Source: Diphasiastrum complanatum (Eukaryota > Streptophyta > Lycopodiopsida > Lycopodiales > Lycopodiaceae). From it: 64,000 nucleotides of DNA. How positions within the stretch are numbered: the first letter of the stretch is position 1; every line of letters starts with the position of its first letter. The stretch is from NCBI GenBank assembly GCA_029204225.1, contig MU831921.1:1-64000 (forward strand), in the 5' to 3' direction. Positions 854 to 48,690 of the stretch are shown piece by piece. The position numbers were made by a program, and so were the translations under genes. The notes beneath the pieces were generated by a model. The model ran no database searches. It was not told the DNA's origin and saw only the letters and a program-made list of their open reading frames with translations.

Positions 854-895
854 ATGGCATGCACTAAGCAAATAGCACGTATCCATCGTGGAGGT
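854..895 (+). pseudogene. Histone H3 N-terminal-tail-like fragment
   Basis: From the ATG at 854 the first 14 codons read MACTKQIARIHRGG. The canonical H3 tail starts MARTKQTARKSTGG, so 9 of 14 positions match, including Met1-Ala2, Thr-Lys-Gln, Ala-Arg and Gly-Gly. The frame stays open to 1093 but loses similarity to H3 after this point, becoming a Lys/Arg-rich run near 940-960. The histone fold is not seen downstream, so this is a fragment or a diverged tail rather than a working histone. The match is short and could be chance. The second H3-like piece in the window (36726-36815), in a similar neighbourhood, makes chance less likely. Confidence 0.4.
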
Positions 896-1017
896 ATCCC
901 AATCATAGGAGGCCAGGGAAATATCCTCTGCTCCAAAAAAAAAATGAAGAAAAGAAGAAGAGGAAGCAATCACAACCTCTCCGGCTTGTATTTTAGTTAC
1001 AGAACAGGAGTGTTTGA

Positions 1018-1437
1018 AAGAAGAGGAGGTCTCTTGACCCTCCTAATAAAGCGAGAGATCTTTCTAAGCCTTCTCCTCTGCATGACATTCTAATTGCTAG
1101 ACAATCTCCTCCGAAATCCCCTTCTTCTTCTCCTAAATCTCAATCTCCATCTTCTCCTCCTAAAGATTCCTCTAATAAATCTCAATCTCCTTCTTCTCCT
1201 CCTAAAAATTCCTCGCCTAATAAAACTCCTCCTCCATCTAAATCTCAGTCTCCTCCTACCCTCACACATATTAGTTTCCCCCCACCAGTTTCAAGAAAAT
1301 ATTTAGATGATTTTGTATATTTAAAGGTCAAATCGATTTTAAATGACAGTTCTTTAAGTGGTTTATCTATAATACTTCCTTCACCCCCTACACTTGCCTT
1401 TGTAAATGCTCCTCAATATGTACAGTATGACCAATAG
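1018..1437 (+). pseudogene. Pro/Ser/Lys-rich low-complexity coding segment
   Basis: The frame is open from 1018 to a TAG at 1435 without a clear start codon. It encodes repeated blocks such as SPSSPPKDSSNKSQSPSSPP, rich in Pro, Ser and Lys, and ends in a non-repetitive tail containing RKYLDDFVYLKVKSILNDSS. Such segments are usually disordered linkers. It follows the H3-tail-like sequence at 854 in another frame and precedes the coding-like exon at 1463, so a frameshift or lost intron is likely. The function is unknown. The nearby poly-Leu frame (1094-1306) is a shadow of this segment. Confidence 0.4.
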
Positions 1438-1462
1438 TTGAACACATATCTAAATGCTTTAG

Positions 1463-1789
1463 GTCCTCTACAGTTTTAAGATGCCGATTACCAATGTTGG
1501 TCTTCCCCTTTCTAAACTGAATACATGTGAACTAGAAAGTAGGGATAAAATGTTAGGGGACAATGTAGGAGAGAGGGCAATTCAATACTGGATGGAGTTT
1601 TTCTAGACCCCAGTATTTATAAATGTCGCATTGTTTCTGCTTAAATTCATGGCTATATTTGATTTCCCTGATTTCAAAAGTCTGCATGATGATATGCTCC
1701 AATACGTCAGACTGGGGACTCCAATACTCGTACTTGAAGAAAAAAAACGTTTCTTTTACCAAAGATTTGCTAGCTTTCAGCCCTCACTC
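1463..1789 (+). pseudogene. Coding-like exon, possible N-terminal half of a Ulp1-like domain
   Basis: After an AG acceptor-like site at 1461-1462 a frame runs 108 codons to 1789, with a single in-frame TAG at 1604. It contains KMLGDNVGERAIQYWMEFF and, after the stop, FDFPDFKSLHDDMLQYVRLG. The composition and hydrophobic pattern look like a folded protein. The order (basic Ser/Pro linker, then this) parallels the locus at 36816-37633, where the C-terminal half of a Ulp1-like peptidase is visible. On that basis this may be the start of the same domain, but no catalytic residue is present here to prove it. It is cut at about 1790 by a copia LTR. Confidence 0.35.
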
Positions 1790-2641
1790 TGACGAAAATG
1801 TTCGCAAATGCGAAAGTCAAAAGACACGAAGCGAAAATGTTCGTGAACACTCTGAAAAAAAGTCACGAACACGAAAAATTTGCAAAAGAGAATTTTGTTG
1901 CGGTACAGCTGGAGAAAGTCAAATGACGCAAAGCGACACGAAAATCATCGCGATGTCCTTTTCAACCCTCACGCTCCAAAAAAGAATCAGCAAGATCATG
2001 CAACTACTAAGAAGTATAGATATCTGATCTGATATCATGACATCAGCAGATGCACTCTAGGTCGTGGCTAATCTGCAACTCTTGTAATTCCTGATAGATG
2101 TTTAATCACTCTAATCTAGAAGTTACACAATGCAACTACATACCTTTTGGTTGATGCATGATATAACAAGTCTAATGCTAGTAAGCAAGATAGACACACA
2201 GAATACAGAATAGAAGTCCGCCTGCAAGCGAGACAAGTTTTGTAAGCAGGATCCACAGAGATCCAAATAGTCCGCTAGTAAGCGAGACATTACTCGTGAG
2301 AGAGCGCCACTTCTCTCACACCAACGCATTCTGTCGGTCTGTCATACAGTGCACGAAAAACGAGAAGATCAATAGATGATATTGTAGCCATTACGCACAT
2401 ATCACTCTTATCTTGTCTGATCTTGAATGAATTGTTGTCCGCCATCGTTTGTGTATCTCATTCACTCATTTTATCAATTTTGCACACTGGTTGAATTTTG
2501 TTGAATGTTGTGTTAATCAAAATGTAAATCAGCAGTGTCTATCTACATTCTGGAGGACGATAGGAATGATACAGCTGGCAGTGACCAGCAATCATATTTG
2601 AAATCCATTCGAATTGTTTTTCGCATCCGCGATTGCTTTTG
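1790..2641 (+). repeat. Copia LTR (5' LTR of a broken element)
   Basis: The segment ends immediately before a tRNA-Met primer-binding site at 2642. It contains blocks related to the LTR at 26904-27637 (an ACTCTTGTAATTC block, and AGCGAGACA motifs in the last third), so it belongs to the same but diverged family. Its left edge is set near 1790 because coding-like sequence stops there; the usual TG...CA ends are not clean. No matching 3' LTR adjoins the remaining internal sequence. Confidence 0.55.
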
Positions 2642-2654
2642 TGGTATCAGAGCC
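2642..2654 (+). other. Primer-binding site, initiator tRNA-Met type
   Basis: TGGTATCAGAGCC matches the complement of the 3' end of plant initiator tRNA-Met, the usual minus-strand primer of copia elements. It marks the end of the 5' LTR and is followed about 100 bases later by the gag start. Confidence 0.8.
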
Positions 2655-2753
2655 CACCTTGTCATAATCAGACATAGCCAAAAAGACTATCAGATTCAGG
2701 AGGCCAAGCATTCAAACAAACAACTATCAACAAGAGATCACACTTCAGAAGCA

Positions 2754-3822
2754 ATGGCTTCAATCAGTAGCATACAGAGCAAGATCTGTATAGTTCTGGA
2801 TTCTTCAGGATCTAATTTTCTAGTCTGAAAAGTTAAGACATCATTGATACTAAAGGGTGAAGGTTTATCCCCCTGGGTGGATGGCACAGAGGAGATGCCT
2901 ATGACATCAGACAAAGAGCTACGCGAGTGGAGGGAGAAAAATGACAAGGCAGTAGCCTTGCTATCTTCATCCATCAAAGATAGTCTCACACTTGACCTGG
3001 CTACACTCTCCAAAGATAAGGAGATGTGGGATACACTACTCACGAGATTTCAAACAAAATCAAGAAGTCAAATAATGATGCTGGAAGATCAACTGACAAA
3101 TCTACAGTGGGACGGGAAAGACCTCACTTCTTTTGTAAGGAAGATGAATCACTACATAACTCTAGAGCAGAGAATGCAGTGTCAGCTGAGAAGCAACTCA
3201 CTTACCTGTTGAGAGCCTTACCCAAATCTTTCCAGACAACCAGAACTCTGCTCGCGGAAGATCCTACAATGACCCTCGAAAAGGCATTTGTCGAAATTCG
3301 AGAGGAATTCGAGGCTAGAGAGCACCTTGATCACAAGGATGGTTCTGACCAAGCCTTCTACGGCAACAAAGAAAAATCCAAGAAACAATTTAAGCCTAAG
3401 ATGGAGTCAAATCAAAGGCAGGATCATGATCAGCAAGCAAAGGGGACCAGCAAAGGCAATTGGAAGAGCAAAGGAAGGTTGAAACAACAAGGAGGAAGAA
3501 AGAAGACTTGCGTAAGATGCAGACGAGATGGGCACACAATTGATACATGCTGGCTCAATTCAAAAATTGAATGTATCCACTTCCACAAGAAGGGTCATGC
3601 AACCATGCATTGTCGCCTGAACCCAAGAAACAAATCAGCATAGAATAGACAGGAGAACAGTAACAGTTCATCCTATGTCGAGGAGCTTGAGAATGGGCGA
3701 AGAGAGATCGAACAGAAATTGTTCGACCGCCTACATCTGTGCAGATCTGTGTGCAGCATCAATGCCTGACACACAAGAGGTGATCCTAGATTCGGGAGCT
3801 ACCTCACACATCGTGACATAAA
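2754..3822 (+). pseudogene. gag: Copia gag and protease start, broken
   Basis: This is the nucleocapsid precursor of a Ty1/copia element. The start is taken at ATG 2754. An in-frame TGA at 2826 stands where the family has Trp (before KVKTSLILKGEG). A frameshift near 3150-3190 then moves the reading to the 3026-3643 frame. A CCHC zinc knuckle (CVRCRRDGHTIDTC) lies at about 3510-3551. A second knuckle (CIHFHKKGHATMHC) has lost its second Cys to Phe. After a stop at 3641, the protease active-site block ILDSGATSH appears at 3783-3809. The element then switches abruptly to a different copia family at about 3826. It cannot encode a functional polyprotein. Confidence 0.75.
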
Positions 3823-3825
3823 GGC

Positions 3826-4620
3826 AAATTGAGAGGAAGGGGAAAAGAGCAACATCAACATTTCAAGAAGGAAAAATCAAAGGAGAAGAGTGATGAGGAT
3901 TCATCACAATCATCAACAAGTTGCAAATCCAACAAGAAGTGCTTCTTTTGTTGTAAGAAGGGACATTTTGCTTCTATTTGTTTCAAGAAAAAAAAAGTTC
4001 TTCAAACAAGCTAACCTTACTAAAGAGAATGAAGGTGAGGTAGAAGGGAGTTATGAGGCAGGATCTCTCATGATGTCAATGTATTCTTCTTCTAGTTTTG
4101 AAGATGGAAATGCGGGTGGATAGATAGTGGATCTACTTCTCATATGACTACTTCAAGAAAATATTTCACTCATCTTGCACCTGACAATGGAGCTAGAAAG
4201 TTCATCTTCTTTCCTATTGATGGTAAATGCAAGATAGAAGGAATTGGTAGTGTACCAATTGGTGTTGGATCCACTATGACTCTAAATGATGTACTTTTTG
4301 TGCATAATCTCACCATGAATCTCATTAGTGTTGGTGAAATGCTAGATGATGGTTTCCAAGTTGACTTTGGATAAGATGCTTGCTTGATTAAGAGGGATTG
4401 TGGAGTGGTGGCAAGAGGGACTAGATGTGGAAATCTTGTGGAAGTGTGGTCAAGAGGAGCTTGGATCATCTCAAGGAGGAGAAGGCAATTAGATTGCCTC
4501 AATCTATGTTCCATGATGGTAAGCCTTGGAGTTGCTTGCTCTTCTCTTGCACAATCTCTTTGCACTGGTTGTCTAGTCATCGATCTCCAAAACATGATGC
4601 AAAGGAATATTGTTCAATGA
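3826..4620 (+). pseudogene. Copia fragment: gag zinc knuckle, protease, pre-integrase
   Basis: A second copia piece, from the lineage of the intact element at 43198-49402. It shows a CCHC knuckle (CFFCCKKGHFASIC) near 3941-3982, the protease block (DSGSTSHM), the protease C-terminal part (NLISVGEMLDDGFQVDFG, ending at a stop at 4372) and a degraded pre-integrase segment up to about 4620. Several frames are needed. It joins the preceding gag fragment head to tail, so the junction near 3826 is either a recombination point or an old nested insertion. Confidence 0.7.
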
Positions 4621-5598
4621 TTGTGATAAGCACTTTGAGATTTACAAAACTCTTTTTACAATTAGTACTTCCTTGTTACATGTGTTTCTTTGTCCATTTC
4701 TTTAGTGTCAGCTAGATTTAAGTTTCCTCCCGGTATCATGTATTTCCATGAATTGATACTCTTGTGCAGGAGTGAAATTGACATTACATGTGGCTCTTGT
4801 CTCAACTCAACCATAAGTTGGACAAGTTCCATTTTGCATATTGTGCCTTTCCTTTCTTGACATAACCCTTGAAGCTCTTGATTAGGCTCAACATGATAAA
4901 ATGTATCAAGATCATTATGCAACTTTGAGAATGCACTCAACAACTCATCTTCACATACACCTAGTAAGAACAACAAAACCAAGAGAAAGCAAAATCACAA
5001 GGAAATACAAAGCTAGAAATCACAAAGCAAAACTTGTGAAGTGAAAATGAAACATTTGAAAAACCTTTGCATGGTCTTGGACAAAAAACTTCTACGACTT
5101 GTTTCAAATAGCTAAATTGTGAATTTGACACATATTTTTCAATCACAATTTTTCTTAATTCCTATTATTGTTACATGCCATTTAGGAATTGGATAAGTTA
5201 TTCTAGGCATTATACACTGATAATAAAATAACCAATATTATTCCATGCAAATTCTAGTAGCCATGCAATTTCACAAATAATAGATGAAAATTAAGCTTGT
5301 CATTGACTAGTATTGGAGGTTCCAATTGCCGATGACAATCCATATTAATGTGTATGTTGATTTTCTGTAGCTCTAAAAATGATGCCCCTATAGAACCACT
5401 CATGACAATGCATTACCTTTTCTCCTACCTCCATTGTATCTTTGTTAGGTGCTTTCTTGACAAGGGATTGGGTCCAAAAAGAAGATATTTACATGAAAAT
5501 ATAGCACCACAAATCTATGGTGTCATTATGAAGATGGTTGCATATTTTCAAACATTTCCAAATCTAAATAGTAGTAATGGAATCCCAAGTATGTTTTA
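4621..5598. other. No gene recognised
   Basis: AT-rich sequence between two oppositely oriented copia fragments. Only short frames are present and none resembles a known family. It may be remains of copia UTR or host spacer. Confidence 0.5.
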
Positions 5599-7600
5599 TT
5601 AGCCAAGCCATACTCCGTGATCAAGGATAATGATCTTCCCATCATGAAATCTTATGTACAATGATGGATCATAAGCACTTAAAACAAAGCTACTAGAGAT
5701 AAGGAAAGAGTTTAGCCTAGAGTACCATGCTCCAGGTGCTTGCTTGAGTCCATAGAGATTCTTCTTCAAAAAACACACCTTTCCTTCATGCTTTTCCTTC
5801 ATGAAGCCCTCAGGTTGCCTCATGTAGATCTCTTCCTCAGTAGCCATTGAGGAAGGCATTTGTAAAATCAAGTTGGAATAGCTCCCAATTCAAGGTAGTA
5901 GCAAGACTAATGATCAATCTTATTGTAACAAGCTTAGCCACAGGAGCAAAAGTTGGCATCATAATCAATTCCTTTGGTTTGCAAAAACCTTTTGATACAA
6001 GCCTAGCTTTATGCTTACTTATTGATCCATCTTGATTATACTTCAGTCTATACACCCACTTGCAATCAAGTGGTTTCTTCTCTTGAGGAAGATCAACAAG
6101 ATCCCAAGTATGATTCTCCATAAGAGCATCATACTCCACTTGCATAGCATCCATCCAAATCTTTGATTTACATGCATCTTCATAGCAAGTTGGTCCATCA
6201 AGCATTGAAGTAAGAAAAGTGTAAGAAGTAAAAGATGAAATGCCTTTCCTTTGATCACCTTTGCCATAATAAGTGAGCCTCAATGGCTCGGCCCTTGATC
6301 TTGTGGATCTTCTTGGAATCCTTGGATCTTGAGGTGGATCCTCAAGCTCTTGATCACTTTGAATCTTCTCTTCCGTCCTAGCATGGTCTTTGGCATCAAG
6401 ATGATTAGTAGCATTGTCATTTATTTCACAAGCATGTCCTTCATAAAAAATAACATCCCTACTCACTATGACTTTCTTAGTGATGGGATTGAAGACTCTA
6501 TAACTTTCGCTATTTTCACCATATCCCACAAAGATGCCTTTGATGGAGGTTGCATCATCCTTATTCCTTGTATCCAAGGATTGGTATACATAGCAAGTGG
6601 ATCCAAATATCTTAAGATCTTTGAGTTTTGGCTTCTCTCCAAATAGAGCTTCATATGGTGTGATTTCTCCAATGGCCTGGTTGAGCAATCTATTGCACAA
6701 AAAGTTAGCACAAGTGATTGCCTCACCACAAAATGGTTTTGTTAGAGAAGCATCTAGCCTTAAGGCTTTAGCACACTCACAAAGAGATCTATTTCTTCTC
6801 TCGGCCACTCCTTTTTGTTGAGGGTTGTAAGGACAAGACAACTCCCTCTTAATGCCATTAGAACTACAAACCTCTATCATTTTATTGGAGATATTTTCTC
6901 CTCCATTATCACTTCTTAATACCTTGATCTTGGTACTAAGTTGATTCTCTACTAGAGTTTTGAACTTTACAAATGAATCAAACACCAAAGATTCACAATA
7001 CAAGAGGTAAATCCAACCATATCTAGAAAGATCATCAATGAAGATGACATAGTACTTGGCACCACCATTAGATTCTTGAGAGAAACTATGAACGTCCGAA
7101 TGGATGATTTCAAGAGAAGTGTTAGATATTGACGTAGATCTAGATAAAGGTAGCTTATGAGCCTTTAAGAGGCTACAAGCCTCACAATGCTTTCCACACT
7201 TTGACAATTGCTTGGGGAGGCCGAGTGCAAGCTCCTTTGCACCCATGGATTCCATAGCTTTGAAGTTGGGGTGGCCCAAGCTTTTGTGCCATAACTCCAC
7301 ACTTGAGATCTCCACCTTTGCCAAATTCATAATCTCCATTGCAACATTAGCATCTAGTTAAAACCCTTTGCTATGCATTCATCATGCTTAAGTATGGAAC
7401 AAATTCCATTCTTAAATTGTACATCTAGGCATTATCCATTAATTGGCCAACACTTAACGAATTCTTGGTTAACTTAGGTACAAAAAGGACATTTTCAAGA
7501 TTCATCCTTTTGGATGATCCAACATACAATGGAATAGTCCAATACCACTTATTCTACAATCTTGATCACTAGCTGTAAAGATGGTGCTTAACATTTAACA
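5599..7600 (-). pseudogene. pol: Copia pol fragment: protease end, integrase, RT start
   Basis: Reading on minus, 7600-7430 encodes the protease end (LENVLFVPKLTKNSLSVGQL). A frame from 7339 to 5837 then gives the pre-integrase zinc region (LWHKSLGHPN ... CEACSLLKAH), the integrase catalytic residues (Asp in HSDVH, Asp in RSDNGGE, Glu in GVAERRNR) and the start of the RVT_2 reverse transcriptase, through QLDFTNAFLNG. A frameshift near 5850 continues the RT to about 5600 (NLYGLKQAPGAWYSRLNSF). The fragment ends before the YVDD motif, so RT is incomplete. It is the same lineage as the intact element at 44637-48680, in opposite orientation to the piece at 3826-4620. No LTR was found. Confidence 0.85.
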
Positions 7601-9601: not shown

Positions 9602-10558
9602 AGAGCGTAGGCGTGTAGGAACGGAAACACAACAGTTAGCAGCAGAAATATTCAAGATGAATCATTCATACAAAATTGCGCAAATGAATAATACAGTAGT
9701 GAGACAAAAATTGCAATTTGATTAATATCAACAGCGAGTACAATGGCTTGAAGTGATAACTTTAGCTTGCTGAGCGTGATAACGCTGGCTACAGAAGAAC
9801 TCTGATTATAATGTTAAAACAACACTTACATTGCTTGATTCATCTAGTAGTATATATTTACAAGTGTCTTCAAAAATATCTTACAAGCATTGAATGCTAT
9901 TTATGTCAGTCTTTGTATATGGGCCAGCTATTTTCAGGGTTGATGATAAGTTGGCGACGTCGGTCTGCCACTGTTGGAAAAATCCAAAAACCGCGAAGGT
10001 GCCCTTGAACAGAGAAAGTATGTGAATCCCGAACGTGCCTTTAAATCGAAGACAGAGAAATACGAAAAAGATGACAGTGCCTTTAAAATGGATTTTGGTC
10101 ACAGTGTCGTAATTTTCCCGAAAGTGCAAAAAATGCAAAAAACCTGACAGTGTCTTTAAAATGAAATTTGGTCACAATGTCGCATTTTTTTAGAAGGTGC
10201 AAAAAATGCAAAAAACCCGACAGTGCCTTTAAAATGAAATTTGGTCACAGTGTCGCATTTTCCTGAAAAAATGCAAAAAACCCGCCAATGCCTTAAAAAT
10301 GAAATTTTGTCACAATGTCGCATTTTTCCAAAAGTGCGAAAAATGCAAAAAACCCGACAGTGCCTTTTTTTTTTTTGACAATGTTGCTTTTTCCCGACAG
10401 TGCAAAAAAGGCGAAGATGCCTTAAACGAAAAATATTTTAAGAAAAAAACAAAGTTTTGGAAAAATGCAAGGTCCGAAATATGTTGTCGGCCTTCGGCTG
10501 TTTTCAGGATGCTCATTACTTGAACGATTTGTTGATACTGGGCAAAAAAAATCTAACA
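9602..10558 (-). repeat. 3' LTR of the minus-strand copia element
   Basis: Direct repeat partner of 12181-13197, alignable along most of its length. It starts (minus) TGTTAGATTT at 10558, next to the polypurine tract, and is truncated at its far end near 9602. Positions 10070-10400 hold about five diverged copies of a 64-73-bp tandem repeat around the motif GACAGTGCCTTTAAAATG. Confidence 0.85.
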
Positions 10559-12180
10559 CTCCCTCTTAATGTGGATCCTGAAAAAGCTTTGAACTTCAGT
10601 TTTAACATATCATTAAATCTGAGATGATGCTCCTTTGATAGAGCTAATATGCATTTTGAATCCTTCAATAAATTCAGATTGTCACTAAATAGTAACATAT
10701 CATCTACATAAAAGGTAATGATTATGAAGGAATTTGATACAGAATGGAAATAAAAAATCGAGTCTGTCGAGTTTGGAATAAAACCAATCTCGTTAAAAGA
10801 TACATTGGTCTTCTCTTAATTAGCATCAGGTGTTGACATTGCCTCTAAAACAACGTTTGATTCCTACACAAAGTAGCAGGTCGGATCATCCGTAAATCGG
10901 GATGGAGGCTGTCTTGATCGGTTCGATCTTCTAGGTTGAACTTCGATCCTTTGATGCGATTCATTTTGTTGAGAGACTGCCTCATTGTCGGAGTCAGTGT
11001 TAGTATCAGTGTCAATGTCAATGTCGATCTTCTGATCAGTCTTGAATTGTTTGGAGTTGTTAGTGTCGACTCTAGGATCTGAATTCGAAGTAGCTTTTCC
11101 CTTGTGGTCGATGAACTGATCTTCCACAAAAATGTCATTTCTGCTCATGAAGGTCTTCTGAGAGTTCACATTGAAGAGCTTGTATTTCTGATGGTCTGAG
11201 GAATAGATGATGAAGATCTACCTTTTGCTGGTATTGTCCAGCTTTCTACTTAGATCAGCTGGGATCTGTGAGTAGACTATGCATCCAAACACTCATAAGG
11301 TGTCTTGCCATTCAGGGCCTCTGAGACTTTGAGATGGATCGATTTTGAAGGTAGGTCGTTATAGTAACAGCTTCTGCCCAAAATTTCTTTGGAAGAGAGC
11401 CATGCATTACATCACCTTTCTGGAATTCGACTTTGACTGTTCCTACACCCTCAATAGTATGAGTCGAGTTGTCTCCAAGTTGCACAACTATAGGATGGTA
11501 CATGACTTGTAGTCATGGAACCAGTGTCGATGGTGAGTCATGTGTTGTGATGCACCTGAGTCAAAATACCAGGAATCGATATCATGTTGTTCTTCGACTT
11601 TGGTCAAGAAGGCAGCTTCATCTTCCTCCTGTTGCTGGATCGAGTGACTGGTAGAAGTAGCATTTGCTTGTCCTTGGAACTGCTGCTTCCTTTTGTTGTC
11701 GTATTGCAGCATTCTACAATCCTTGATAAGTGACCATGAGTCCTCTTATAGTACTTATAGAATAGATTCTGTCTTGGCTGGAAGGATACTCTGAAGTTGA
11801 TGGTGTGTTTGATACAGGTCGTTGCATGTTGCTCTTGTTGTCAGGATAGTCTGACTGTGTAGACCTCTTGGATCTAAACTTTTGATTTTTTGAATATAGA
11901 GCTTGAGGATCCGATCTTGAGCCTGAGGAGGATGACAGTTCTTTGGCTAGTAGTATAACCTTCATCTTGAATTTCCAAATATGGTAGTTATCTCCATCGA
12001 GTTTGTCAATGAGCGATGAACTAGATGATGGATCCATTCTATTTGAACAAGATCGTTGGTAGAAACAATGATTGTCGGGATATTGTTGGTTGCACGTTTG
12101 CTAGAGAGACGTCTTGGTAGAAACAAGACTGATAATCCGTAGTAGAAATGCAGATTACTAAAATGCCTGCTCTAATACCA
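10559..12180 (-). pseudogene. Copia internal region, gag to RT fragments
   Basis: Read on minus: primer site TGGTATTAGAGCA at 12180-12168; gag N-terminus from ATG 12037 (MDPSSSSSLIDKLDGDNYHI), shifting into deleted gag; protease block DSGASQHMT near 11560; protease end joined directly to late integrase (KKFWAEAVTITTYLQNRS) near 11390; acidic integrase tail to 10864; and an RT scrap with YVDDMLLFS near 10690, which runs straight into the polypurine tract. The catalytic integrase core and most of RT are deleted, so the element would need enzymes supplied by another copy. Confidence 0.8.
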
Positions 12181-13197
12181 TGTCGTAAAAGAGATGACTG
12201 GCAACAGAAGCTTGAGCGTAGGCATGTAGGAACGGAAACACAATAGTTAGCAGCAGAAATATTCAAGATGAATCATTCATACAAAATTGCGCAAATGAAC
12301 AATACAATAGTGAGACAAAAATTGCACTCTGATTAATATCAACAGTGAATACAATGGCTTGAAGTGATAGCTTCAGCTGCGTGATAACACTGGCTACAGA
12401 TTAACTCTGATTATAATGTTAAAACAACACTTACATTGCTTGATTCAGCTAGTAGTATATATTTACAAGTGTCTTCAAAATATCTTACAAGCATTGAATG
12501 TTATTTACGCCAATCTTTGTATATGTACAAAGTGGGTAACCGCCCTTGGGATATTTAGCGGTCCAGCTGTTTTTCGAGTTGATAATAAGTTGGCGACGTC
12601 GGTCTGCCACTGTTGGAAAAACTCGAAAAACACGAAGGTGCCCTTGAACAGAGAAAGCATGTAAATCTCGAAGGTGCGAAAATCCTGAAGGTGCCTTTAA
12701 AGCGAAGGCAAAGAAATGCGAAAAAGATGACAGTGCCTTTAAAATGGATTTTGGTCATAGTGTCGCATTTTTTTCGAAGGTGCGAAAAATGCAAAAAACC
12801 TAACAGTGCCTTTCAAATGAAATTGGTCACAGTGTCGCATTTTTCTCGAAGGTGCGAAAAATGTGAAAAACCCAACAGTGCCTTTAAAATGAAATTTGGT
12901 CATAGTGTCATTTTCCTGAAGGTGCGAAAAATCCGACAATGCCTTAAAAATGAAATTTGGTCACAGTGTCGCATTTTTCCGAAGGTGCAAAAAATGCAAA
13001 AACTCGACAGTGCCTTTTTCCCGACTTTTTCGTGAGAGTGTGACAAAGGCGAAGGTGCCTTAAACGAAAAATGTTTTAAGGAAAAAACAAAGTTTTGGAA
13101 AAATGCGAAGGTCCAAAATATGTTGTCGGCCTTCAGCTGTTTTCAGGATGCTCATTACTTGAATGATTTGTTAAGGCTGAGCATAAGAAATCTAACA
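12181..13197 (-). repeat. 5' LTR of the minus-strand copia element
   Basis: Complete LTR of about 1017 bp with TG...CA termini, followed on minus by the primer site. Like its partner it contains a tandem array (12720-13030) of about five copies spaced roughly 60-73 bp, built on a GACAGTGCCTTTAAAATG motif followed by a GGTCACAGTGTCGCA block. The array lies in the part expected to act as promoter or leader, so it could influence transcription; this is inference. Confidence 0.85.
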
Positions 13198-14995: not shown

Positions 14996-17574
<2,579 letters not shown>

Positions 17575-20156
17575 TCAAGTTCCACTTGCCACCAAATCCT
17601 CCACGTAGTCATGCAAAACCTGGTCATACAGTTTCTTCAATCGTCCCAATGCTCGCTCCTTTTCTTTATCTGATCCATTCTCTACCTGTAAATGGCTAAC
17701 AATAAAATGCTGGAAACCCTCGACTGCTTCGAACTGTTACAAATATTCATACACTTGTCAACTAGCATTCCAATCCATGCACAAGATCACAAATAATCAC
17801 TTAAGCCTGAAAGTGAAATATTCGAGATAGGGAGGAATTTTCTACTAGTTTTTTTGTAGCACCCCAATATGTAACTTTCACTCAAATGTAATAGTACAAG
17901 AAGAGAAGAAAATGACATTTATTGATAAACCAAAACTGACATATAAGAGTAAAATTCGCATCACCTGTGCACGCCCTCCAGCATTGTATGAAGCCTTAGC
18001 AAGACTGCTGAGGTCAACTTTGTGACCAGCCACTTGTGGCTTCCCTGAAGGCACTGGCCTACCCTTGGCACGCAGATAATCATACACCGTCCTCACAGCA
18101 AAGCGAGAGTCCTCCGTAAGTGGTGCTCCTGTCACTTAACAAGAGTTATGCAAATATTTGGCAAATCATTCTGTAACAATCAGGAATCCAAAAAAAGGGT
18201 GATAATCCATTACCATTCAGCAATGGATTCAGTTATCTAGAAAACGAGTCCCTAGAGACGGAAAATGCATTGCATTCCTAGGCTACAAAATAAAAGCTCA
18301 AATTTCAACACTGGTACCATAAACTGCTGTCAAGGTCAGGGCCTTTAAAAATGGTAACTTACAAGCATGCGAATGATGTGACTGTAGGGGTGCAGACTCA
18401 GCAAGACCAAGCTCCCCGTCTTGAAAGGCAGTCCAACCAGGCTCATATGCTTCCAGAAATGCTTGCTTAGCCTTATTTGGCAGGTCATGAGGATGAACAA
18501 AGGGAACACCAGTAGGCCATCCAAGTTCTGCTCTCATCAACGCACATTGGCTATCCGGGGCAGAAAGATGATTTCCCTCACAATCCCTTAAGCTGCAAAA
18601 CCGAAGTTTGAGGCCTTTTCGATCAGCAATGTTTTGTACTCTTTCCTTCAGCACCCTCTGAGCCTCCAGCCTCAACCTCTTGGATGGAGCCAATGGCTTA
18701 CCCTTAGAAACCTGTTTCCTCCTCTTCAATGCTTTTGGTGGTCCTGCAAAAGAAAATTCAAGATACAGTAAATTAGCCTCTTAGCAGAACACAATACATA
18801 CAAGACCCTGATAATTGAAACTTGAGAAACACAAACAGTTATGAAACTCTATGAGGAATACAGGTCAGTTTCCTACAACAACTAACAAAAAATTTCCTCA
18901 AATTCCCAGCACATACATGATACATATATATCCTCAACTGCACACAGCCCAAATATTTTAAACCCTGACAAAAGCAGCTAATAAAAATAAAAAGGAGATG
19001 ATTGAAGAAAATTCAACCTAGTTGTCTGTTTTCAAATCATTTGTGTGAAGCTCAAAGATCGACTTCGCCCATGTTTTATACACTAATTCTAAAAATCAAG
19101 AGAAACGCTCATATCACTATACAAACCTTCAAGGGATGCTGAGACAGATAGATTGGAGATGCCAAGCTTGTCAAGAATCTGGTCCATGGAATGAGATCGT
19201 TGCATGAATTCATGAGCTGATACTGGCTGCTGGAAAGGACCACCCACGACATGCCCAGCCATTGTCATCCGAGAGCAGTGCAAGATCGCGGTCGCTCTTG
19301 GCATTAGCTTAAAGGCAACAGAGCACCTCCCATACATTTGCCCCTGCGAGGAACTACTCATCTCAGTTCTGTGCAAAGCTGGGCTTATATAACCAGCAGT
19401 GGCTTGATACAGAGACAGGCCTGCATAAAGAATCATATCTTCAGGGCCAAGGTCTCCATCAGCAAGGAACCATCGCCCATGACTATCCCTGATCTGCAAA
19501 CCCGGTTTGTCGGCCCGCAAAAGTGTCAACAATCCTTTATCAGCCTGTGGTTCCGGATCATTGAAGACTGGCATGTGAATTGGGTCCTGCTCAGAAAGAT
19601 GAACGGCACCATGAACCCCAGGCCTGCCATGGCAGCATATGGATAGAACAGATGTTGATATTTCTCCATTTTTTAGTGGAATGTTATCAAGCAAATCTGC
19701 AAACGAGAAACTTCGGAGCTCAAGGAAGCATCCAATGGCATCAAGCACATGCCGAGAAGCCTTACCCAGACAGGAAAACAGCTCAGGTAGACATGCAGGA
19801 GAAAGCTCCGTGTCACTGCCTGCAGCTGCACCTGGCCTGTAGTCTAAAAACTCTCTTGCATGCTGGGGTTGGGAGCAATAGCCCACTGTCTTGTTCCAAT
19901 CCTGTAAATTTTCGGCATGGAGAGACTCCGAAACAGGGTTTTGCCTTTGATGAAAGAACATCCGAGAAGAATCCAGCACGCATCTTAGTAAAATATCATC
20001 CCCAGGAGCTAGTTGGATGATCACCAAATTGTATCTAGCTAGTGACTGAGACAGAGCACTCACTGCATATTTGTAGCGTTCTGAGGGCAACCCATCTAGA
20101 GGAACCAGGTCTAGAAGCCGAACACGTGCAGGAGAGGATATTCCAGGGCCTGCCAT
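17575..20156 (-). CDS. 2-oxoglutarate/Fe(II)-dependent oxygenase-like protein, four exons
   Basis: Proposed exons on minus are 20156-19127, 18743-18363, 18134-17965 and 17685-17575. Donors are GT and acceptors AG, and phases agree throughout, giving 563 residues. Exon 1 resembles the isopenicillin-N-synthase fold: an N-terminal segment (RYNLVIIQLAPGDD, about 41-54), a jelly-roll core with DKGLLTLL (206-213), and ALHRTE carrying a candidate iron-ligand His262. At the first ligand position of the usual HxD motif there is Gln204 (CAG) before Asp206, so iron binding may be weak or lost. Exon 2 adds a basic NLS-like run (KALKRRKQ, about 347-354) and a conserved-looking C-terminal region of unknown role. 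Exon 4 ends in a charged helix (RLKKLYDQVLHDYVEDLV). It resembles a plant oxygenase-superfamily group of unknown substrate. A read-through of exon 3 to 17878 is an alternative end. Confidence 0.8.
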
Positions 20157-20289
20157 TTGATGTACAAAGCTCAGCAGTCGAACCAGACTACATTATCCAA
20201 TCATTCCCAGCTCTGCCTGGACTCTTCATCATTGCTTGATTGAGGTAGTTGATTTCTACACCAGCTTCCATGCTTGCGTGTATGTGATC

Positions 20290-27637: not shown

Positions 27638-27650
27638 TGGTATCAAAGCA
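27638..27650 (+). other. Primer-binding site, tRNA-Met type
   Basis: TGGTATCAAAGCA directly follows the LTR end at 27637, with one mismatch to the usual TGGTATCAGAGC core. Sequence from 27651 to about 28057 looks like untranslated leader; no gag is recognisable before the gypsy region begins. Confidence 0.65.
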
Positions 27651-28612: not shown

Positions 28613-28677
28613 GATAACAGTGATTTTAGATTGCTCTGGGCAATCTAAAATGAACTCGTGGAGAGAAGCTGGAGGCC

Positions 28678-28687
28678 TATATATAGA
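28678..28687 (-). promoter_or_regulatory. TATA box ahead of the 184-aa ORF
   Basis: CTATATATAG (self-complementary) lies 66 bases before the ATG at 28612 on minus, giving room for a transcription start and a short leader. The leader contains a perfect 11-bp hairpin (28624-28650, TTTTAGATTGC paired across a 5-base loop). Confidence 0.5.
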
Positions 28688-29053
28688 CTTTTTTTTGGCA
28701 GAAATTCGCAACTTCACCCAAAAATTGTCCTCAACCTCCACGATTTGGTATTGATGGTCGCGAATTTTGAGGCAACTTTCTGAGGGCCCGCGAATTCCTG
28801 TAAGTGATTTTTTTACTGCCAAAAGAAAAAAAACATCTGATAGTGCAAAAATATATCTGATCAGAATTCGCGGAGATAGTAGGAAAATCTTGAGAATCAA
28901 TTTGAGCTCCAGCGAATTGTCTGCAAATTCTGAGAATGGATATCAAATGAACAAAACTATTTTTTTTCTATTTTTAGACAATTTTTCATCTGAGACAGAA
29001 TTCGTGGAGGTCAAAAATGAATCGTGATTTGTGAAAAAAGGGTCAAGCGAATT

Positions 29054-31096: not shown

Positions 31097-32140
31097 CGAT
31101 AGTAGTTGGCGTGGCCAAGGAAGGAGTAAACTTCACGTATCGTACGGGGTTACGATAGATTTTGAATGATAAGGATCTTTTCAGGGTCAGTGGCAATGCC
31201 ATTTTGTGAGATAATATGTCCTAACACAATACCGTGGGTTACCCAAATCTAGCATTTTTCAGGATTAAGAGAGATACCGAAGCATTTTGGATAAAAAAAA
31301 TTTCGAACACAGACAAATGACGTATTTCTTCAGAATGTGCTCCTAAATCGTCCAAGTAAACTTCTAAGGTATCGCCCATCTACTGAGAAAAGGCCGCTTG
31401 CATAACACGTTGGAAGGTGCTAGGAGCATTGCAGAGACCAAAAGGCATGACTTTCCAGCAGAAGGTTTCCCATTCTGTGGCAAAGGCGGTTTTGTGTTGA
31501 TTTTATTATATCCGCTAAAGCCATCTAAGAAGGAGTAAGCCTCATCTCCTACTAGATTTTCTCAGATGGATTCTCTGAAAGGTAGTGGAAAATGATCACG
31601 TTCAGTGACGGCATTAAGTTTCTTAAAATCGACACAGATCCGGAGTTTTTCTTTTTTCTTGGGGACGATGACAATTGGGGAGACTCACTCAATATGCTCA
31701 ATTTTATAGATAAATTCCGCGTCTAAGAGGCGTTGTAATTCTTCTTTGATCTTGGCCTTATAGATGGGATTGCATCTGTATGGACGACTCGCAGTGGGCC
31801 TCGCACTCGGTTTAAGTGGGATATGATGCACAACTACTTGGGTGAGAGGCCTTTCATGTCTTTATAGGTCCAGACAGAGATATGTCGATATTTTCACAGG
31901 AGCTTTTCAAGCCGTCTTCGTTGTTCGCGATTGAGATGAGCTCCGACGTGGACAAGATATTTGTTGGTTTCATTTGGCTCACTCAAGGAAAGGGTTATGG
32001 TTTGTGCAGGGCCTTCGTAGGGTGAATTACTAGTGGGCTCACGTTGAGCTTGGGGTAATTTGATTGTGACATCCTCGATCGTATAGTCCTTAAAGTATGC
32101 AGGAACATCATGGGCTGGAGATTCGAGGGGGGCCTTGCCT
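31097..32140 (-). pseudogene. pol: Gypsy reverse transcriptase, frameshifted
   Basis: RT motifs can be read on minus in several frames: RPYRCNPIYKAKIKEELQ near 31780, SPIVIVPKKKEKLRICVDFK near 31680, a FSGYNKI block near 31520, and the polymerase active site as YLDD at 31358-31347. Multiple stops and shifts interrupt it, so no active enzyme could be made. Confidence 0.75.
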
Positions 32141-33616
32141 TTATCTTGCCGAGATGGTGCCTTTTCGGGGACTGGTGTAGGGTAGAGGCAATTTCAGGAA
32201 CTTCCCAAACAATTGTGAGGTCACCCGACGATTGAATTTGAAGTGGTTTTTCATTTTCTCTTTCATAGTATGACCACGTGGTTGAGGTTTCGGTGGTGGA
32301 GAGACAGTTGGTATGTCATGGAGGATCTCGTTATCAATTTGAAAGATAGTCTCCTCCTCATAGAGATCCCATGGATAGTGTGGGCATTTGGGACAGTAGA
32401 ATTTTGTCTCAGGTTTTTCAATTGCAACCTTGGCAACGGATTTCACCTTGGAAGCATGTTGCGGATAGATCTTCGGAGGAAGTGCTTCCATATAGTTGAG
32501 AATCTGAATATCAGAAATGTCCATATCTTCTGGGCAATTCTGAATTTGTAAGACGTTCTCGTCATCAATGAATAAATCGTCTGATTCATTAGTAGGTAGC
32601 CATGCAACATTTAGCAGCTCATCATGGTGCGGAACAATATCAATAAAATTGATATTGATGATGGGTGTATCCAGATCAGGTAATTGGTCGTGATCGATCG
32701 GGTGTGGAGAGGTACAATTATCTTGATGTTGAGCACAATAATCGGCATTCACACAATCAATGGTAGCTAGACTGTGACTCCAGTTTATGATATCAGTAGA
32801 TTTAACATAATGACCTTTTTCATGGCTGGACTGGTATGGCTCAGATATTGAGTTGGTGGCTGAGGATCCCTCGTCATGGATGCGCACAGGTTTGAGTTTA
32901 CCCATTGAGTCAATGGTGACAAAACTGTCACGATTACCAAAAGTGACTCGGCCTTTGCTCCAGTCATGAACGACTCGTGCATTGGTTAGCCACGGACGAC
33001 CAAGTAGTAATTCATAAGAATAGACATTATTGGGAATATCAAGTACTACAAGATCAACAGAAAACTTGAGACCTCCTAGTTTGATCAGCATGTGCGGAAG
33101 GAAACCGGTAGGTCAGACCACACTTTGATCAGCCATTCGAAGCTGACAAGTAGGTTTTGCTAGCTTGTCTCTTAGATTCCATTCCATCATGAGGGATGTG
33201 GAAATGATATTAACCTCGGAACCTCCATTGAGTACTGCTAAAACTTCATGGGATTGATGATGGGTAGCTGGGATTTTGATGTTGCCTCGTTTACTGAGTG
33301 GATTGGTTAGATGTAAGGGCATTTCAGGCAACTCGTCAATAATGGTGGTGGTATTGGATTGGATCTGTTGTTTCCACTGTCCAGCATGCTTCTAGAGTAC
33401 ATGGAAGGGAAGGATGACATTGGCTTGTAGTAAATCTCCCCAGACTTCGGTACCTTCAAGGGTTTTGCTTTCAAAGGGCTTGTGAGGTACTTTATGGGAA
33501 GAGGAAGATTGTTGGTCGACATTGCGGATTTGCTGGCGATACTCATGATACAGCCGAATTTCTTCAGATGGGTGTGGATAAACTATCGAGGTTGAATCAT
33601 CACTTGGAGGAACCGC
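32141..33616 (-). pseudogene. Gypsy protease region and linker
   Basis: The aspartic-protease segment is on minus at 33331-33113. Its active site reads VLNGGSEVNI, whereas family members have Asp (DGGSEVN), so the catalytic Asp is replaced by Asn. The C-terminal protease half follows after a stop at 33112 (from 33091: SYELLLGRPWLTNARVVHDW). A long acidic linker then runs to 32141 with four Cys/His in the FYCPKCPHYPWD block near 32390. The upstream part (33616-33332) is frameshifted. Confidence 0.7.
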
Positions 33617-35043
33617 CTACGGTTGAGTTTTGCTGGGTGCAAGTGTAGGGGTTTGGCGTTGGGTTTGTGCCCGAGTCAAGACCCAAGCAGGATTTGTTTC
33701 AATTGGTAAGGTTTCTATTTGCACTAAACAGACAGGAGTGGTTGGCTTAGATAGGTATGGGCAGTCCTTCACGTGATGTTCAATACCACAGTTTCCACAA
33801 GCTGGAGGAAAGCAGAGTTTATCTGGGCAACGAATACTAGGATGTTTATCTACACTAATAAAGCATCCTCGTATTGTGGGTAGTTGATGTGCGGCAAAGA
33901 CAACTTGGTTTGGGTTGTAAGCTTGGGCATTGGGATCCACCGGTTGAGCGTTAGAATCATAGGTATAATAAACAACCGTTGCAGTAGAGTATTGCTGTTG
34001 AGTATTATCTTCCACATAGTAGGTGGCCGGATCGATGGTATTCAGATCAAGATAATGGACAGCGTTTTGTGGGGTAGGTTGGTTAACAACAAACTATTGA
34101 CGTGGGGATGGGTATTGATTTGGTGCAGGTGGTCGTGGTTGGTAAACTCCTGGTCGTGGCAGAGGTTGTTGTGACGGGTACGGGCGGTAAGATCGATAGA
34201 TGGATGGTTTGTTGGCTGCTGGGAAATGATTTTGTAGTTAAGGGCATTCATTAGCAGTGTGATGCTATGAGCAGATTGGACACCAGACATTTTCCCTTGC
34301 TGGAAAGGATTTCTCAGCAATCTATTTCATGGCGGTTTGAAAATCGGCAGTGAGTTTATCCATATGAGATTGTTGAGCTTTTTGCCAAAAATCCATTTGA
34401 TGTAGAAGTTCAGAAGACTAAGCAATATTATCAGATTTCGGGTGATTAGGACGGTACGGATTCTTAGATTTTTTTTCACGATGGTCAAAGTCATCGTCGG
34501 AACCTTCGTCTTCTTCACGGATAGCATCAGTCATCACATCTTTAAGTTGATCATAAAGGTCAACTGGTTTGAGTTCACGGCGGATGTTTTTTGGCAATCC
34601 AACTAAAAATAGTTTTATGGCCATTCATCTAGTGATATTTTCATCAACACATTCTACTTTGAGACGTTTAAAACACTCAATGTAGTTTCGAACAGACTCT
34701 TCGCGATGCATCTTGATATGAGTAATTTGAATGAACGGGCTCTGAGTCAGTTTGGATGATTTGAAACGCTTGATGAGAGCGTCCTTGAGGGTGGTCCAAG
34801 AAGCAAGATCAGGAGCTTTGAGATTCAAGCACCACTCCTTGGCGGTGCCATAGAGTGCCATGGGAAATAGGCGAAGCTTTTCAGTTTCAGAGGTATCTCC
34901 ATAAAAACGGCATGCATTATCAAAGTCTTGGAGAAATCGGACTGGGTCAGATTCGCCATCGTACTTTGGTGCATCGATACATGGAATTCTTCGTTCCATT
35001 CGTGGAGGAGTCGGATTAGAAGATTCAGCACAGTCACGAGACA
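33617..35043 (-). pseudogene. gag: Gypsy gag
   Basis: Start taken at ATG 35043 (MSRDCAESSNPTPPRMERRI). The Retrotrans_gag core follows (YDGESDPVRFLQDFDNACRF, then AKEWCLNLKAPDLASW). An in-frame TGA at about 34625 is followed at once by the same frame (KLFLVGLPKNIRRELK). A Gln/Asn-rich region and two zinc-knuckle-like sites come next: one near 34290-34250 interrupted by a stop, and an intact-looking CGNCGIEHHVKDC at about 33800-33760. It is broken by stops and shifts. Confidence 0.8.
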
Positions 35044-35880
35044 TGATGCAGAATATAGATGAGCAGGGCAGGACTGTACTTGACAAAAAGGACAGTTTGC
35101 TTGCAGATGGATAGTGTAGGACAAAAACTGGTCTTTCTGATTGTTATAGAATTCGCAGACAGGCTGAGAGATCGTGGAGAGGCAGATAAATCTAACTGTA
35201 ATACTCGCGAATTCTGAAAAAGGCTTTTGAATGTCAGAATAGTGATTTTTTTAGATTTTTTGGAAAAATTTTGGCGTTTCAGAATTCGCAGATAGTACAT
35301 GGAAATCGTGCTCTGTGAGGACGAATTCTTAGGCTGGATGACGAATTCTAACAGAGAGGTTTGACTGGCAGATAGGGAATATAAAGAAAAATGTGATGTT
35401 TTGACAGTAAATGGGCAAAATCTGTGAGATAGAATTCACGGAGCTGCTGAAGGACTGATCTTAATGAGATCTAGCCTCAGTGAAGTCGGCGAATTCTAGG
35501 ACAAAGATTTTGATGAGAAATAAGGGATTTTGACAGTATATCAGGCCGTTTTCTCAAAATCTGAATGTGGTCAGAATTCATGGAGGTGATAAAATGAAAG
35601 ATCAGGGTCTGTTAGGGCTGCAGACAGACTAGCGAATTCTGATATACCTTTTTTGTTGTGAAAAATGTCACTTGGGTCACTTCTTTTGAAGAAAATGCCC
35701 AAGTTGACTCTTTTGTTGCTTCCCGTCGGTTTGAGAAGTTGCTCCGCAGCTCGTGTAGGACCTGGAGAGACGATGCGTGCTGTTTGTTGGTAGATAGAGA
35801 TAAGCACACAAGCAAACATACAACACAGAAGCAAAAAAACAAAAGAAAAGGGAGAAGAAGCTAGGTAGAAAAATACTTAA

Positions 35881-35899
35881 AAAGCGGCAACAGCACCAA
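35881..35899 (-). other. Gypsy primer-binding site, tRNA-Asp-like
   Basis: On minus, TTGGTGCTGTTGCCGCTTT follows the LTR end. The Athila-type site is TGGCGCCGTTGCCGG, so it matches with a few transitions. Confidence 0.6.
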
Positions 35900-36725
35900 T
35901 GTTGGAAGTATTTCTAGTGTGTGCAGTGGCTAGATCTACTTATAGGTATAGTATAGGGATGAAGAGATTCGTCCACTTTTTAAGTTTCTACCAAGGTTCA
36001 AACAGAAATCCGAAACTAAGACGTAATGACGGAAGCACTAAGGCTTACCCAACTAGTGCTCAAAACGGAAATGAAACTATCTAAAGTGACAAAATACAAA
36101 CCCTTGCTAAGACTTACCCAGCTAGCAAGGTGTTTAATCTAAATTCTACTTAACACCCAAAGGGTAATAAAATAATATTGCGACTAATATTAAGAAAATA
36201 AGCAATAAAGAACATGCCACAATAAACCGATGAAAAGGAGGCAAGAGGAGGCCCGAGCACCTTCCCTCAAGCTATGCACCTTTCCAAAGGGAACACAAAT
36301 GACATAGAATGATAATTCTCCAAAATAGAGAGCAAGATAGCTTAATCTCAAAAGTGTTGGTTACAATGCAAATACCTCTCCTTTTATGGCAAGGAGGGTC
36401 TTCCATAAGTGTCTACTAACTTATGGGACTAATCTGTTTCTAGCTTTTCAAGAACTTCTAACTTAGGATTTAGAACTTCAAATTTCTTAACTTAGGAAAA
36501 CTTAAGATAAAATATTTCTAGTCTTAAGTTTTCTAGGTCTAAGTTCTAAATCTAAGTTTAGGCTATTTTATTATTATTTAAGCTTCTACTCATGGACTTA
36601 CAAAACACATGCCATGGCTTGAAGTTTATTGACAGATACTCATATGTGGTCTTACAAAACACATGCCATAGAGTTTTATTATTATTATTATTTTTATTTT
36701 CTCTGTGTTAGCACAGTTGCTAACA
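35900..36725 (-). repeat. Gypsy 5' LTR
   Basis: Bounded by TGTTAGCAAC (minus start, at 36725) and CCAACA (minus end, at 35900), giving 826 bp with TG...CA termini, next to the primer site. The outer boundary is inferred from the terminal bases and from the point where H3-like coding begins (36726). No second copy exists in the window to confirm it. Confidence 0.6.
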
Positions 36726-36815
36726 TTTGAGGATTCCGTTCTGTTGGTTGTGCATGGTAAGTGTGTTACCATCATGCCCAAGGATTTTTATTTCTCAAAA
36801 GACTTTAGGAGATAA
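36726..36815 (+). pseudogene. Histone H3 C-terminal fragment
   Basis: The frame reads FEDSVLLVVHGKCVTIMPKD followed by FYFSKDFRR and a TAA at 36813. Canonical H3 ends [20 protein letters not shown] then IQLARRIRGERA. The match covers helix 2 end, loop L2 and helix 3, with VTIMPKD intact, and the stop falls close to the normal H3 end. The sequence begins exactly at the inferred edge of the gypsy LTR, so the upstream part of the gene may have been separated by that insertion. Substitutions such as Lys-Cys for Lys-Arg, and loss of the terminal RGERA, argue for a diverged or dead copy. A CENH3 origin is less likely because the VTIMPKD block follows canonical H3. Confidence 0.65.
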
Positions 36816-37633
36816 TTCAACCTCCATTTGGATAACGCCAGCACCTCCAAGGATCTACCTCTGGATATAACAGACCTCCCCACCACCTTTAACAAGAAGA
36901 GGAGGTAGTCTCGTCCTACAAAATCAAGATCTCACAGGCCGACTGCTTCCCTACCTCCGAAAGTCATCCCTACAAAGCGGCCTGACATCGTCCTGACCAC
37001 TAGTTCAGCGTCTTCTGAGTCTGAATTAGACTCATGATCAGCTTCTCCTCCTCTTGTTGCTCATCAACCTCCTCAAAAGGTTTCCTCATCGAGGAGCTTG
37101 ATAAGATAACATAGAAATATGTAGATATTGTTTCCAAATCCTATACATTTAATAAGTAAGTCTTTCCAGTTAAGTTATGATGCTTTTAATTTGATGTTTA
37201 TATTTTTTTTAGTAATGATTCTAATTTCATTTTTAATTTTGCAGCCGTCATTGGAGCCTGAACATTCTTTCAATCAAAATAAATGAAGGAGTATCAAATT
37301 TTCTGTGTGTAAAAATAAATTCAGCTAAGAATACACATAGAGAATTTGATTCTCTACTTCATACAACCATTAGAAAAATATCGACAACAGCCAAATCTAT
37401 TGGCGAAATAAAAACAAAAACTATCAAGGTATATAATATTGCTGATATGGATCTTTTTTTGTTTTAATCATCTTTGCATGAATAAATTATTTATCATAAT
37501 TTTAGTAGTTTTCATTTAATATCTATAGTCTGTACAACAAAACAATTCTTTTAGTTGTGCCTGGTGTGTGCTATACAATACAAAGCTATTTTTTGAGTGG
37601 TACAACCTACAAGTGGACGTTGATATTGACAAG
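36816..37633 (+). pseudogene. Ulp1-like (C48) cysteine peptidase, degraded, with introns
   Basis: Downstream of the H3 stop is a Ser/Arg/Pro-rich stretch (SRPTKSRSHRPTASLPPK near 36915-36970) with stops. Exon-like segments follow. One ends near 37154 (KYVDIVSKSYTFN) before a GTAAGT donor. Exon 37245-37428 starts after TTTTGCAG and reads RHWSLNILSIKIN then REFDSLLHTTIRK. Exon 37529-37633 reads QQNNSFSCAWCVLYNTKLFF. Intron phases join without a shift. The order His-Trp, Asp-Ser, Gln and Cys matches the Ulp1/SENP catalytic arrangement (His, Asp, oxyanion-hole Gln, Cys), though DCG has become SCA. An upstream TAG (about 37112) and the changes suggest a pseudogene. A further exon to about 37859 is possible. 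Confidence 0.55.
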
Positions 37634-48680: not shown

Positions 48681-48690
48681 ATAATTTTTT

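Follow-up and report, generated by a model that had tools for sequence, protein, structure and literature searches.

A high-copy DNA element family of Diphasiastrum complanatum predicted to encode a histone H3-like protein fused to a C48-like peptidase

Introduction

Fungal transposons that carry histone H3 are known, and so, separately, are plant and other transposons that carry Ulp1. In Dothideomycete fungi, H3L or H3-carrying hAT transposons have been described (PMC3538342, PMC6710886). In plants, Ulp1 genes named KIU/Kaonashi occur in VANDAL elements, which are Mutator-like elements (MULEs) without terminal inverted repeats (TIRs) (PMC13317346), and in CACTA-ULP elements (PMC2528002). VANDAL elements also encode the VANC anti-silencing proteins (PMC10398659), and KIU versions carry Ulp1 (PMC13317346). 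A fusion of both domains is apparently undescribed, and no report of an H3-Ulp1 fusion in a mobile element was found in the accessible parts of the open-access literature. Here, we analyze a stretch of 64,000 nucleotides from the lycophyte Diphasiastrum complanatum (contig MU831921.1, here C403, of assembly GCA_029204225.1; referred to as the window), which is plant-like in sequence character and contains Copia and Gypsy elements. An initial annotation of the window had noted two loci at which an H3-like piece, a KKRR and Ser/Pro-rich linker and peptidase-like exons follow each other. This order was recovered at both loci by tblastn, by Protein Data Bank (PDB) searches and by comparison with genome copies. 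The two loci are decayed members of a single high-copy DNA element family, one gene of which is predicted to encode a single protein, with an H3-like tail and fold joined through a basic Ser/Pro linker to a C48-like cysteine peptidase.

The family resembles the fungal H3L hAT elements in being a DNA transposon with TIRs, an H3-like gene and many copies (PMC3538342, PMC6710886). In the fungal elements, however, H3 is a separate sequence that is putatively functional in one species and inactivated by repeat-induced point mutation (RIP) in others, and no fused peptidase is mentioned in the accessible text. The hAT elements of Mycosphaerellaceae have an 8-bp target site duplication (TSD), whereas the family described here is found in a plant, shows no TSD and no hAT domain that could be found, and carries a strongly diverged, fused H3. 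Like KIU and CACTA-ULP elements, it is a plant transposon with a probable Ulp1-type domain; the termini of those elements are different, those of KIU lacking TIRs, and the word "histone" is absent from the main text of PMC13317346 and PMC2528002. Like CryptonF and CryptonS, it is a mobile element with a C48 gene (PMC3212892), but Cryptons encode a tyrosine recombinase, none of which was recognized here, and TIRs are present in the family. At the protein level, the ARTKQTA tail motif and a complete histone fold are common to the family and to core and centromeric H3, whereas the family has no Lys9 and Lys14, shows a Pro-rich stretch in the Lys27/Lys36 region and continues into the linker and the peptidase. 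The C48 proteases Ulp2, SENP and NEDP1 have the HW, Gln and Cys motifs in the same order, and a family profile matched only C48 structures; the family differs from them by Asn at the Asp position, by strong divergence and by the N-terminal H3.

Results

Copies of the H3-peptidase gene in the host genome

The assembly to which the window belongs (1.74 Gb) was searched with parts of the predicted gene. Matches numbered at least 156 for the linker frame of locus 1 (1018-1434; 150 of 3346 candidates scored), at least 150 for the H3 part (150 of 6906) and at least 150 for the N-terminal half of the peptidase (150 of 1345); all three lists contain near-duplicate contigs. For comparisons between the window and the family, queries were read letter for letter from the copies L004, L011 and L021.

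Copy L011 (contig C2582) contains an open frame of 427 amino acids (aa), which starts with ARTKQTACGHSGGIPI and runs through a complete H3 fold into the KKRR/Ser-Pro linker; an DDFVSVKVESILND segment comes next, and then the N-terminal half of the peptidase. Two further exons hold the His and Gln/Cys motifs. The H3 part of L011 matched the Pfam Histone family PF00125 with 58 bits (cut-off, 26.4; E=1.5e-15) and H3 structures in the PDB with E=7.9e-18, the best 60 of 173 rows being eukaryotic H3-type histones. The TKQ motif with Lys4 was present in all 27 alignment rows that reach the tail. In the same rows, which contain near-duplicates and one place counted twice, the Lys9 position was occupied by Gly, Ile or Val in 25 and deleted in 2, and the Lys14 position was Ile in 25 and Leu in 2. 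The combination of Lys4, Lys9 and Lys14 that characterizes the tail of histone H3 was thus not found in the family tails.

Ordinary H3 of the host was found at 13 places with 97-99% to canonical H3. More than 100 other listed H3-like places showed 44-57% to canonical H3 (e.g., C10:47288806-47289186), with open frames of up to 440 aa. The best family copies (C2582 and C6:37845642) are not among these listed rows, which indicates that a capture of H3 would not be recent.

Co-occurrence of the parts was determined for the loci that the linker search had yielded, 25 of them distinct (L001 and L003 to L028, with L027 and L028 repeating L001 and L003). Of these 25 loci, 22 had all or some of the H3 fold upstream, 2 had only the tail and 1 (L008) had neither; the N-terminal half of the C48 peptidase was likewise present in 22 and absent from L004, L009 and L010. 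Because 18 of these loci were picked for long open frames, the sample is not random, and it includes the near-duplicates L009/L010 and L015/L019. At seven further loci, found through H3, the linker was in line in six and on the opposite strand in L035, and the peptidase N-terminal half was present within 3.4 kb in 7/7 (L032 and L033 are near-duplicates). The recurring arrangement of H3 and SUMO peptidase, which the initial annotation had taken from two loci, therefore holds for the genome copies, where the parts co-occur in a fixed order. This excludes that they never occur together or are separate processed pseudogenes.

Remains of the gene at locus 1

The following features were assigned at locus 1.

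198..712, plus strand: two exon pieces of gene C, the right-end gene of the element, in inverted orientation compared to full copies
854..922, plus strand: H3-like N-terminal tail MACTKQIARIHRGGIPIIGGQGN; 857-922 against the L004 tail, 20/22 identical, E=1.6e-9
937..1434, plus strand: basic KKRR and Ser/Pro linker and DDFVYLKVKSILND segment; against L011, E=2.3e-55, 60%
1469..1735, plus strand: C48-like peptidase N-terminal half with one in-frame stop; family query, E=9e-44

The sequence MACTKQIARIHRGG at 854-895 resembles the H3 N-terminal tail and is at noise level when taken alone (tblastn with canonical H3, E=6.1); its score was reached in 2 of 300 shuffles and its 9/14 identity in 0 of 300. 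The linker reads as a KKRR-initial, Ser/Pro-rich frame from 1018, with two stops ahead of 1018. Comparison of 1517-1735 with the exact peptidase N-terminal half of L021 gave E=1.1e-37 and 82%. The gene C pieces are GC2 at 198 (75%) and GC1 at 446 (83%), and 446-676 matched the exact gene C exon of L021 with E=6e-38. Judged from the identical copy L001, the end of the element lies about 350 bp beyond the window edge. An identical copy of the locus-1 linker (window 1018-1434) is located on a large contig, at C12:31141884-31142300, and the window's contig may be an alternative haplotype of this region.

In Pfam and PDB searches with the tail and peptidase pieces alone, no credible Pfam match and only PDB noise were obtained, and tblastx of locus 1 against locus 2 in the window revealed nothing significant. 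Significance came from the comparison with genome copies.

Remains of the gene at locus 2

Locus 2 comprises the following features.

35900..36724, minus strand: Ty3/Gypsy long terminal repeat (LTR) truncating the locus, 825 bp, TG...CA
36726..36809, plus strand: last helices of the H3-like fold; the frame reads FEDSVLLVVHGKCVTIMPKDFYFSKDFR (starting FEDSVLLVVHGKCVTIMPKDF...), the H3 C terminus
36891..37106, plus strand: NKKRR and Ser/Pro stretch, from translation
37115..37155, plus strand: end of the peptidase exon, KYVDIVSKSYTFN/N; the GT donor follows at 37156, and the intron has the phase seen in the family
37245..37428, plus strand: exon with the catalytic-His motif RHWSL, bounded by splice sites
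37529..37633, plus strand: exon with the Q..N..C motif (QQNNSFSCAW), matching L021

The LTR is supported by a primer-binding site at 35886 and by minus-strand domains of gag, RNase H and integrase, and a single base separates it from the H3 piece. The initial annotation had each locus cut by an LTR; this was confirmed for locus 2, and what was found by locus 1 is a Copia-type primer-binding site at 2642. At locus 2, the upstream part was lost to the Gypsy LTR, and the peptidase N-terminal half is missing as well; no second LTR leading to the rest of the locus beyond the Gypsy element was found in the window.

The H3 piece at 36726-36809 was the best match of canonical H3 in a tblastn search of the 64-kb window (E=1.5e-4; next match, E=1.9). 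In a phmmer search of the PDB it reached a best E value of 5.8e-4, with histones, nearly all named H3, as the best 60 of 169 rows. Its H3 score was 72, and none of 300 Markov shuffles scored above 43. The stub at 36714-36788 matched the L011 H3 fold with E=1.1e-4 and 60%, its first 11 bases belonging to the LTR; outside the LTR, 14/21 residues were identical (E=2.0e-4).

The segment 37249-37380 matched the exact His exon of L021 (E=1.4e-7, 44%) and 37529-37612 its exact Cys exon (E=4.8e-6, 50%). The exons 37245-37428 and 37529-37633 can be joined via GT-AG introns with compatible phases, and the positions and phases of both locus-2 introns are common to the family copies. After splicing, the best Pfam match was Peptidase C48 with E=0.024, under the cut-off; the unspliced pieces gave no Pfam C48 match. 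A strict HW and Q..C motif pair alone arose in 6 of 300 shuffles, and thus genome copies were needed as evidence.

The C48-like peptidase and its conservation

The C48 catalytic set consists of a His-Asp-Cys triad and an oxyanion Gln. In the family, the catalytic His was kept in 22 of 24 rows, the Gln in 15 of 16 and the Cys in 15 of 17. A profile of six rows, whose exons were verified letter for letter, was compared with the PDB and gave five matches up to E=10, all of them C48 proteases: Ulp2 (E=0.021), SENP8 (two, 0.031) and SENP7 (1.2 and 1.3). These sequence comparisons suggest that the peptidase is likely C48-like (Ulp1/SENP). The C48 match was lost in a chimera of the locus-1 N-terminal half and the locus-2 C-terminal half, and two AlphaFold models, built on 6 and 8 rows of similar sequence, were of no use (mean predicted local distance difference test scores [pLDDT], 31.1 and 30.5). 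A (CA)n microsatellite encoding Thr-His repeats has enlarged inside the His exon of L022, L032 and L033.

Ratios of nonsynonymous to synonymous substitution (dN/dS) were determined pairwise after removal of partial and near-identical copies and of those with stops, the restriction to stop-free copies biasing the values down. For the H3 fold, the 36 pairs among 9 copies had a median of 0.31, compared with 0.60 and 0.75 in the wrong frames. The peptidase N-terminal half had a median of 0.26 (45 pairs among 10 copies; wrong frames, 0.79 and 1.09), the His exon one of 0.34 (15 pairs among 6 copies; wrong frames, 0.63 and 2.09) and the linker one of 0.60 (136 pairs among 17 copies; wrong frames, 0.87 and 1.02). 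The H3 fold and the peptidase N-terminal half thus look to be under constraint.

Ends, insertion and gene content of the element

The gene order common to the copies is left gene, gene B (opposite strand), H3-peptidase gene, a further open reading frame (ORF) and gene C (opposite strand); every piece was found together in few copies only. At the left end, CATTAGGGGAAATATGGGCTCAAAATGGGCCC, the similarity of two copies begins exactly (with two mismatches in one of them), and its inverted counterpart CATTAGGGGATATTAGAACTCAAAATGGGCCC forms the right end. The element is therefore bounded by imperfect 32-bp TIRs, CATTAGGGG...CCCCTAATG, as the initial annotation had proposed to check. When up to three mismatches were allowed, 1266 left-end and 1064 right-end places were detected, and a reversed-pattern control gave 0. 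Pairing of ends by position and orientation yielded elements of 11.3, 11.9 (twice, with the same flanks), 9.0 and 2.6 kb; in these, only the ends were read, and one contains an H3-query match. L022, which was read whole, is a 6.2-kb element, and the longer copies measure 9-12 kb.

No flanking repeat of 2 bp or more, as expected for a TSD, was found at five independent insertions. L022 is inserted inside a Gypsy pol gene, whose reading frame resumes without a gap across the junction. When its flanks were joined, all 40 listed matches (40 of 4128 candidates scored) crossed the junction, and the best of them spanned 228 bases of the query and 228 of the target. The flank matches and the continuous frame indicate that there is no duplication and that CATTAG...CTAATG is part of the element.

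The left gene shows D, D, E-like motifs by eye, with no profile support, and is a putative transposase gene. A left-gene query stitched from copies had 278 or more matches, and long frames were among them. Neither this gene nor gene B, gene C or the downstream ORF gave a credible match in Pfam searches. In the pieces scanned, Pfam detected no match of the Transposase_21, MULE, hAT, tyrosine recombinase or Rep/helicase type. CACTA/EnSpm elements have CACTA-type ends, a 3-bp TSD and a Transposase_21-type transposase, whereas the ends here are CATTAG and none of the five insertions has a TSD. The missing TSD also differs from the 9-bp TSD of MULEs and, together with the missing hAT domain in the pieces scanned by Pfam, from hAT elements with their 8-bp TSD. 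Cryptons have a tyrosine recombinase and neither TIR nor TSD, and Helitrons have Rep/helicase and no TIR; the family has TIRs and, by Pfam in the pieces scanned, neither a recombinase nor a Rep/helicase. The ends and the missing TSD thus go against plain membership in CACTA, MULE or hAT; since the left gene matches no profile, it may nevertheless encode a transposase of one of these classes.

Discussion

A possible function of the fusion and its weak points

We favor, with a probability of roughly 0.62, that both loci are relics of a transposon whose H3-peptidase fusion would be a chromatin-directed anti-silencing accessory protein. The anti-silencing role is a hypothesis built by analogy. The apparent selective constraint on the H3 and peptidase parts suggests that both serve the element in its dealings with host chromatin. 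The fusion product may act as an accessory protein of the transposon, whose H3 part would dock in or on chromatin. Its tail has Lys4 and no equivalents of Lys9 and Lys14, so that the marks borne by these two residues would be impossible at these positions. A desumoylating or related peptidase would in this way be delivered to the element's own chromatin, where silencing would be opposed and expression and transposition of the element favored, a logic like that of VANC and KIU in VANDAL. An anti-silencing function is preferred because plant VANDAL elements already use anti-silencing proteins and Ulp1-carrying KIU versions. The missing Lys9 agrees with it and proves nothing.

Several observations weigh against the arrangement at the two loci or against this interpretation. 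At locus 1, the tail and linker are found without the histone fold, which is deleted there. At locus 2, the linker has no significant similarity to the family linker, and its assignment follows order and composition only. At one place of an H3-like subfamily (L060), linker and peptidase were not found in the 600 nucleotides downstream, and hence not every H3-like repeat in the host genome is a fusion. Single proteins reached Pfam C48 scores of 11.6-15.2 bits, below the cut-off of 20.7 (E, 0.02-0.24), and in two trials just 1 of 4 and 2 of 6 rows gave a C48 match, none above the cut-off. In 22 of 23 loci, Asn takes the place of the catalytic Asp, and in the remaining locus Ser does, which makes peptidase activity uncertain. 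Many of the copies retrieved contain stops or frame breaks, the dN/dS values carry the downward bias mentioned above, and the Cys exon of 36 aa (dN/dS 0.45; 9 copies, 35 pairs) shows no contrast with one of its wrong frames (0.64 and 0.41).

A bolder version of the anti-silencing hypothesis seems doubtful at present. In this version, a plant transposon superfamily that fits no class by its ends, its target-site behavior or its transposase would encode its own nucleosome component, an H3 variant with Lys4, without the silencing-mark lysines and with a tethered desumoylating enzyme, which would build silencing-resistant chromatin on the element. We know of no described transposon with such self-made epigenetic armor.

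Alternative explanations

Passive transduplication, in which fragments of host H3 and host Ulp1 were captured and hitchhike without function, is an unlikely explanation. Many family copies are broken, and there are precedents: the captured H3 in Mycosphaerellaceae hAT elements is RIP-inactivated (PMC6710886), and Ulp1 capture is frequent in plant transposons, with most captured fragments seeming non-functional (PMC2528002). Hitchhiking fragments, however, are hard to reconcile with dN/dS values of the H3 fold and the C48 N-terminal half well under 1 and lower than in the wrong frames, with the TKQ motif in 27/27 tails and with the fixed gene order. Nor was the capture recent, since ordinary host H3 is found at 13 places and the family copies are far diverged from it.

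Less probable again is that the H3-like part serves transposition itself, in DNA packing, insertion-site choice or as a transposase scaffold, and that the peptidase matures a protein as in adenovirus-like systems, with no involvement of silencing. C48 relatives do serve as viral maturation proteases, and several other genes of the element have no assigned function; no capsid, polymerase or virus-like gene was recognized in the pieces scanned. The initial annotation had left the choice between an undescribed transposon and an endogenized DNA virus family using a histone. The former gained support from the TIRs and from the transposase-like gene recognized by eye, whereas the latter appears very improbable. 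Viral histones exist, the element is large, multi-gene and has inverted termini, and four of its five genes or ORFs gave no match. Against a virus speak the eukaryotic H3-type histones among the PDB rows (best 60 of 173), the transposon-like ends and the copy number. In addition, Pfam detected no polymerase, capsid or packaging gene in the pieces scanned, and an IMG/VR scan with canonical H3, suited to detect close relatives only, gave five pattern matches, none of them a relative. Chance, or unrelated pseudogenes that happen to be adjacent, can practically be dismissed: the locus-1 tail (2/300 shuffles) and the HW/Q-C motif pair (6/300) are weak alone, but homology to genome copies with E values from 4.8e-6 to 2.3e-55 (1.1e-4 for the locus-2 H3 stub) and the shared intron positions refute it.

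Implications

VANC represents a known, sequence-specific form of anti-silencing by transposons. If the anti-silencing role proposed here is true, a divergent H3 joined to a SUMO-type protease and maintained by selection would constitute a direct attack on nucleosome composition, and the family H3 would provide chromatin research with a natural H3 without Lys9. The ends and copies of this large family of plant elements become accessible to annotation. Elements that have inverted repeats but no TSD are unusual, and their integration mechanism becomes testable.

Other features of the window

A Copia element at 43198-49403 contains a gag-pol frame of 1357 aa and near-identical LTRs (245 bp at 100% and 484 bp at 99.2%), and thus its insertion is probably young. 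On the minus strand, 19089-20192 holds an open frame of 367 aa that matches nothing in Pfam and may be a host gene. The region 9603-13197 is a duplicated block, whose copies lie about 2.6 kb apart and each carry an array of repeats spaced by about 73 bp.

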